A stretch of 64,000 nucleotides of DNA from Nitrososphaera sp. Lineage in GTDB: Archaea > Thermoproteota > Nitrososphaeria > Nitrososphaerales > Nitrososphaeraceae. The position numbers and the translations under genes are program-made. The DNA is taken from the NCBI RefSeq assembly GCF_013388945.1, contig NZ_JACAEH010000014.1, positions 62,001-126,000 on the forward strand. The letters run 5' to 3'. The notes beneath the pieces are model-generated. The model ran no database searches, was not told the origin of the DNA, and worked only from the letters and a program-made list of their open reading frames with translations. Numbering within the stretch: the first letter of the stretch is position 1; every line of letters begins with the position of its first letter. Shown piece after piece: positions 22,048 to 22,470 of this stretch.

Positions 22048-22121
22048 GCCTTAGTAGCTCAGCCTGGCAGAGCGAGGGTTTCGTAAACCCTAGGTCGTGG
22101 GTCCGAATCCCACCTAAGGCT
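22048..22121 (+). tRNA. tRNA-Thr (CGT)
   Basis: GCCTTAG/CTAAGGC acceptor, AGGGT-TTCGTAA-ACCCT anticodon arm, GTGGG-TCCGAAT-CCCAC T arm. Confidence 0.92.
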
Positions 22122-22170
22122 TGTTTCTCTCATGGTGAATCCTTATATCTTTTGGAGCCGTATAGTTTAC

Positions 22171-22264
22171 GGATAGCAGTCAAAGGAAGAAACATCGATA
22201 CGTTAACACCGCATCGGTGGACGTAAATCTTTGGATGGACGTCTGATTCCCGCGACTGCTATCC
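22171..22264 (+). ncRNA. candidate structured ncRNA
   Basis: Perfect 11-bp terminal helix GGATAGCAGTC/GACTGCTATCC, internal hairpin TACGT..CACCG-CAT-CGGTG..ACGTA, TATA-like TTATATCTTTT about 25 nt upstream, no convincing ORF. Confidence 0.5.
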
Positions 22265-22323: not shown

Positions 22324-22470
22324 ATGGCTGACTCTCTGATGAGCTATGCCATAGTGGTTGGCATAGGGGTCTTCCTGGCGGGGGTCCTGTTTGGCACCAG
22401 GTACAACCGCGTAAGGCACGCCCACAAACAAGCGCACGGCGGGGGCATGTCGCACTCCGAAGCTGCCTGA
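22324..22470 (+). CDS. small membrane protein (48 aa)
   Basis: MADSLMSYAIVVGIGVFLAGVLFGTRYNRVRHAHKQAHGGGMSHSEAA, one TM. Confidence 0.5.
   Translation: MADSLMSYAIVVGIGVFLAGVLFGTRYNRVRHAHKQAHGGGMSHSEAA

Follow-up and report, generated by a model that had tools for sequence, protein, structure and literature searches.

The stretch of DNA analysed here (the window: 64,000 nucleotides of Nitrososphaera sp.) carries one member of what is almost certainly a real, structured, promoter-driven RNA family and, very probably, one that has not been described. The family comprises structured RNAs of about 85–145 nt from ammonia-oxidizing archaea, organisms that are among the most abundant archaea of the ocean and soil and of whose regulatory RNAs, to our knowledge, very little is known. 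The initial annotation, made from the letters of the window, had proposed here a new non-coding RNA with a long closing helix and its own promoter; this reading is supported by the comparative evidence, and only its inner hairpin needs correcting. The features of the locus are as follows.

22143–22153, + strand: TATA-like box TTATATCTTTT, with its centre about 24 nt upstream of the predicted 5' end and kept in the three nearest relatives
22159–22166, + strand: CGTATAGT block between the TATA box and the 5' end, which reads CGTATAAT in three relatives of the genus
22171–22264, + strand: non-coding RNA, 94 nt, predicted mature extent from P1 to P1'
22171–22181, + strand: 5' strand of P1, GGATAGCAGTC, perfectly paired with 22254–22264
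22185–22188, + strand: 5' strand of P2, GGAA, partner TTCC at 22247–22250
22189–22192, + strand: junction J2/3, GAAA, the last three A being the most conserved unpaired bases
22193–22219, + strand: P3 hairpin CATCGAT/ATCGGTG, a variable arm (arms 22193–22199 and 22213–22219, inner CG/CG, 7-nt loop)
22220–22243, + strand: P4 hairpin with a C(NNNG)G tetraloop, C-TTTG-G in the window
22244–22246, + strand: junction J4/2, TGA in the window and TGG in most copies
22247–22250, + strand: 3' strand of P2, TTCC, partner GGAA at 22185–22188
22254–22264, + strand: 3' strand of P1, GACTGCTATCC, with no oligo-T run after the window copy
22324–22470, + strand: open reading frame of 48 aa, a small protein without a Pfam match

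The overall architecture is that of a helix P1 (about 9–11 bp), which holds the RNA ends, followed by an internal loop and P2, the latter leading into a three-way junction from which P3 and P4 branch off. The closing helix, as first drawn, paired GGATAGCAGTC perfectly with GACTGCTATCC, and it stands; so does the TATA-like box TTATATCTTTT placed upstream of it, the centre of which is about 24 nt from position 22171. The tRNA-Thr(CGT) gene 49 nt upstream of the RNA, with its end at 22121, had been overlooked. The 94 nt fold with an energy of -38.6 kcal/mol, as compared to -20.8 ± 3.0 kcal/mol for shuffled sequences (z = -5.97; none of the 200 shuffles is as good), and the z values for the fold in three genomes are -6, -5.5 and -4.7. 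The inner hairpin of the initial annotation, TACGT-TAA-CACCG-CAT-CGGTG-G-ACGTA, does not survive the comparison. In the alignment of the four closest relatives, only 75% of its cells are paired; of its ten base pairs, three are disrupted in three of these sequences, and compensatory changes are absent. When forced together with P1, it yields -24.3 kcal/mol versus -37.7 kcal/mol for the conserved fold, that is, about 13 kcal/mol worse. A pseudoknot between YCRAAG (22180–22185) and CUUUGG (22229–22234) was also considered and rejected; it fits three copies and is broken by the loop CUAAGG of the G012 copy.

Relatives of the RNA were found at increasing distances. By blastn, two genomes of the same genus (G014 and G015, which we believe to be N. 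viennensis and N. evergladensis) match at 80–82% over the RNA plus promoter, and a covariance model built from these two copies and that of the window retrieved a fourth one, in G012, at 79 bits. With lengths of 94, 96, 93 and 95 nt, these four nearest copies cannot share a reading frame; the initial claim that there is no coding sequence here thus holds, no reading frame being conserved. The flanks of the copies vary: the window has tRNA-Thr, G014 and G015 have a tRNA-Ser about 1–1.7 kb away, the stretch compared in G012 contains no tRNA, and no protein gene is common to the window and the other genus copies in the stretches compared. What the genus copies have in common is the RNA, the TATA box, and the intervening CGTATAAT block.

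A covariance model trained on the four Nitrososphaera-type copies only (R2) matched 46 of 400 genomes of the class, namely, the 4 already known from the genus and 42 that all belong to a second family (f9, presumably the Nitrosopumilaceae), with best E values in the latter ranging from 1e-14 to 0.04. A model refined from 43 copies among these matches (R3), which scores the window copy at 91.4 bits on the + strand versus 27 bits on the - strand, yields matches in 88 of 250 f9 genomes, which represent 12 of the 22 genera and have at most eight copies each; in the window's own family, it detects the RNA in 4 of 70 genomes, the same four as before. Among 398 genomes drawn from the phylum, matches at E ≤ 0.01 are confined to these two families. 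A pattern scan of named genomes gave just three chance matches, all in bacteria, and the closed P1 pattern had no match in a viral collection. About two thirds of the f9 genomes are without a detected copy, and no copy is found, even at E up to 10, in two members of the window's genus that are about 99% complete (G008 and G011, the latter believed to be N. gargensis), where the RNA is apparently lost or strongly diverged. The family is patchy and, therefore, is either not essential for the lineage or has diverged past detection.

The initial annotation had named compensatory changes in homologs as a check, and in the wider family these are abundant. Double changes are seen in 29 of 30 pairs, with 510 double-changed cells in total, as compared to 151 on average with shuffled partners (none of 500 shuffles reaches the observed number) and to 52–105 with partners slid by 1–3 columns; since the alignments were fitted to the structure, these pair counts favour it to some extent. 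In P1, the sequence of which is conserved along with the pairing, 94.8% of the cells are paired across 101 copies and eight of the nine modelled pairs are double-changed; the respective values for P2 are 87.7% and four of four. Within the four genus copies, covariation is weak (two pairs, not above shuffles) because P1 is identical in all of them. Read on the strand of the promoter, the pairs include 267 G-U cells versus 67 A-C cells, an excess that an RNA encoded on that strand should show; this check is not fully independent inasmuch as the model itself prefers G-U. The placement of the TATA box, the slid and shuffled pair counts, and the strand bias all speak against an artefact of model fitting. 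Among the unpaired bases, the AAA of J2/3 are conserved at 88, 99 and 91% (weighted), the final G of the C(NNNG)G tetraloop in P4 at 86%, and the GG of J4/2 at about 70%, whereas P3 is the variable arm, with a loop that varies in sequence and length.

That the RNA has its own promoter, as claimed at the outset for the window, is borne out across the family: in 102 of the 108 distinct copies with flanks, a TATA-like motif starts 24–32 nt before the first base of P1, as compared to a mean of 2.2 and a maximum of 8 for random places in the same loci. The promoter lies outside the covariance model, so that this count is not imposed by the model. A run of five T within 15 nt after P1 is present in 38 of the 108 copies versus 5.5 in the control; the window copy has no oligo-T run, and its 3' end is without definition in the sequence. 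In many f9 copies (for example, L053, L056 and L075), a GATCA(T/C)C block, TGATCATCTTTTTATT or TGATCACCTTTATT, directly precedes the TATA box; it may be a variant of the BRE or a regulator site common to these promoters.

The genomic context of the copies differs between lineages, as do the neighbouring genes. In genus g38, the RNA is followed by a convergent open frame, the next conserved one, whose end lies a few bases past P1; in g33, TTTTT comes after the RNA, without a convincing same-strand gene. The copies of these two genera, and indeed most copies, look like stand-alone genes. In g36 (probably Nitrosopumilus), ten copies lie 10–12 nt ahead of the ATG of a TFB paralogue, with TTTTTT in between in seven of the ten, and an eleventh copy (L083) is separated by 30 nt, with TTTTT, from the TFB ATG; the protein downstream of the g36 copies is TFIIB by Pfam. 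The searched f9 genomes contain 15–35 TFIIB repeats, which at two repeats each corresponds to roughly 8–17 genes, and the number of same-strand RNA-TFB placements expected by chance among the 108 copies is, by a rough estimate, about 0.1–0.2. The ten TFB placements probably represent one event plus descent, and the TFB link is limited to this one genus. A consistent gene downstream, as would be typical of a riboswitch or leader, is seen in g36 with TFB and not in g38, g33 or the window.

Comparison with the known RNA classes is in line with the initial reading of the RNA as a candidate new one. In the window as a whole, cmscan finds only tRNAs, with no meaningful match for the RNA stretch even at E = 10. 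Rfam 15 likewise includes structured archaeal RNAs with paired ends, but none of its 4227 families is matched at the gathering score by the window copy or by homologs from many genera, and for the tested homologs a threshold as loose as E = 1 yields nothing over the RNA either. The archaeal RNase P RNA (RF00373, RNaseP_arch), a family defined by a model of 288 positions and expected once in each genome, has its gene at other places in G000, G011, G012, G014, G015, G044 and G116. An H/ACA guide is rejected on two counts: the 3' flanks of the four nearest copies are ACC, GCT, TTT and ATG, not the ANA box expected directly 3' of the lower stem, and the fold is a three-way junction, not a single hairpin with a guide pocket. 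As for a C/D guide, the C box (RUGAUGA) is absent, the CTGA of the window (22243–22246), which would correspond to a D box (CUGA), is TTGG in the relatives, and the ends form a long helix. An uncatalogued structured RNA of a planktonic archaeon has likewise been reported, namely, the 229-nt Tan1 from Candidatus Thalassoarchaea, marine group II Euryarchaeota, and the excerpted passages of that paper describe no comparable Thaumarchaeota RNA (PMC5069720). In the open-licence literature, we found no report of the present family, although subscription journals and preprints may hold one. We regard the family as a new class of RNA, even if its mode of action may turn out to be a conventional one.

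With respect to function, the scenario that we favour, while holding it at slightly less than an even chance, is that of a trans-acting, protein-binding RNA from which an attenuator of TFB has been derived in one genus. Since many copies have oligo-T after P1 in addition to their own promoter, free RNAs are the expected product of most copies. Judging from the promoter position, transcription would start at the first base of P1, and the two ends of the free RNA would be zipped together by this helix. The conserved core, consisting of the AAA of J2/3, the UGG of J4/2, the P4 loop C(NNNG)G, and P1 with its conserved sequence, would then bind a partner, most likely, a protein, because the structure is conserved without a conserved loop suited to base pairing. 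Together with this partner, the RNA would form a small trans-acting RNP with a regulatory or scaffolding role. In g36, it would be placed at the 5' end of the mRNA of a TFB paralogue, where it would probably act in cis: transcripts ending at the T run would yield the small RNA, whereas read-through would yield TFB, so that TFB output would be coupled to the state of the RNA. This arrangement suggests that the family is part of a TFB-centred transcription circuit. The further proposal that the free RNA binds TFB, or the complex of RNA polymerase with TFB, and that the leader copy closes an autoregulatory loop is distinctly unlikely as it stands; if true, the family would be the archaeal counterpart of an RNA that regulates transcription globally, and ammonia-oxidizing archaea would tune promoter choice among their many TFBs by means of an RNA. 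The bacterial 6S RNA is a free structured RNA tied to the choice of the transcription initiation factor. It offers a functional analogy only, if the TFB link holds: 6S RNA is a long hairpin with a central bubble, whereas the RNA described here is built around a three-way junction and has no sequence or structural match to it. The genomic TFB link in g36 is the sole tie to a 6S-like role, the binding of polymerase or TFB being putative.

The same g36 leaders, with TTTTTT ahead of the ATG, as well as the conserved bases in the junction, would fit an orphan riboswitch or cis-acting leader, in which the junction is the aptamer for a ligand and P1 with the oligo-T forms a switchable terminator. Indeed, g36 resembles known attenuator and riboswitch leaders in having a structured 5' leader, a T run, and a start codon in succession, and in L048, L049, L062 and L158 a gene with an Lrp/AsnC domain starts 62–75 nt downstream, another placement compatible with a leader. 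However, the family differs from such leaders in that most copies have no gene behind them and no ligand is known for the RNA; the g38 and g33 copies lack a same-strand gene downstream, and the downstream genes vary between lineages, so that the seemingly stand-alone copies would have to control unrecognised genes. In the window, the gene that follows is the 48-aa open reading frame at 22324, which has relatives in 13 other searched members of the genus, up to three per genome, including the RNA-less G008 and G011, and its matches in G012, G014 and G015 are far from the RNA. A role of the RNA as a leader of this frame is, accordingly, rejected; the frame itself appears to represent an unannotated family of small proteins, probably membrane ones. 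Altogether, we consider a riboswitch unlikely. Much the same weight can be given to an antisense RNA that controls mRNAs by base pairing through seeds in its loops or junctions: stand-alone small RNA genes with paralogues often are of this kind, but the conserved unpaired stretches here are only 3–4 nt, with no long conserved seed, and the P3 loop varies in sequence and length.

A housekeeping RNP, engaged in processing, modification or scaffolding and unrelated to TFB, would be in line with the compactness, the closed ends and the strongly conserved structure of the RNA; it is made improbable by the patchy distribution and by the mismatch to the candidates at hand, as RNase P has its gene elsewhere in the seven genomes named above, and H/ACA features, C/D features and Rfam matches are lacking. 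The conserved complementary ends with a variable middle, along with the occurrence of several copies per genome in both orientations, are reminiscent of a DNA element, such as an attC-like recombination site or the ends of a mobile element. Yet a promoter at a fixed distance on one side only, the strand bias with its excess of G-U over A-C, the single copy in most genomes, and the lack of matches in plasmid and phage records leave this explanation with very little probability. Finally, an open frame of 149 aa on the minus strand crosses the RNA region and could hint at a remnant of a coding sequence, but the lengths of 94, 96, 93 and 95 nt break any frame between the nearest copies, and a chance fold is hard to reconcile with the z values in three genomes, the covariation, and the promoter; the comparative data refute both versions, and their probability is practically nil. 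Compared with all these alternatives, the trans-acting, protein-binding RNA with a derived TFB leader remains our working scenario.

A multi-copy, uncatalogued RNA family with its own promoters and strong covariation can be annotated at once in many genomes and can be looked for by name in RNA-seq data that already exist. Should the TFB leader prove functional, it would represent a testable case of RNA-based control of an archaeal basal transcription factor.

In G166, a match to the fluoride riboswitch aptamer (RF01734; L053:2948–3026; 34.7 bits, barely above the cut-off) lies about 1.4 kb downstream of the RNA gene and is unrelated to it. G276 has eight matches in one genome, some of them 1.5–5 kb apart and in opposite orientations; in its paralogues L111, L120, L122 and L156, about 50 nt are inserted in P3, resulting in RNAs of 143–145 nt.
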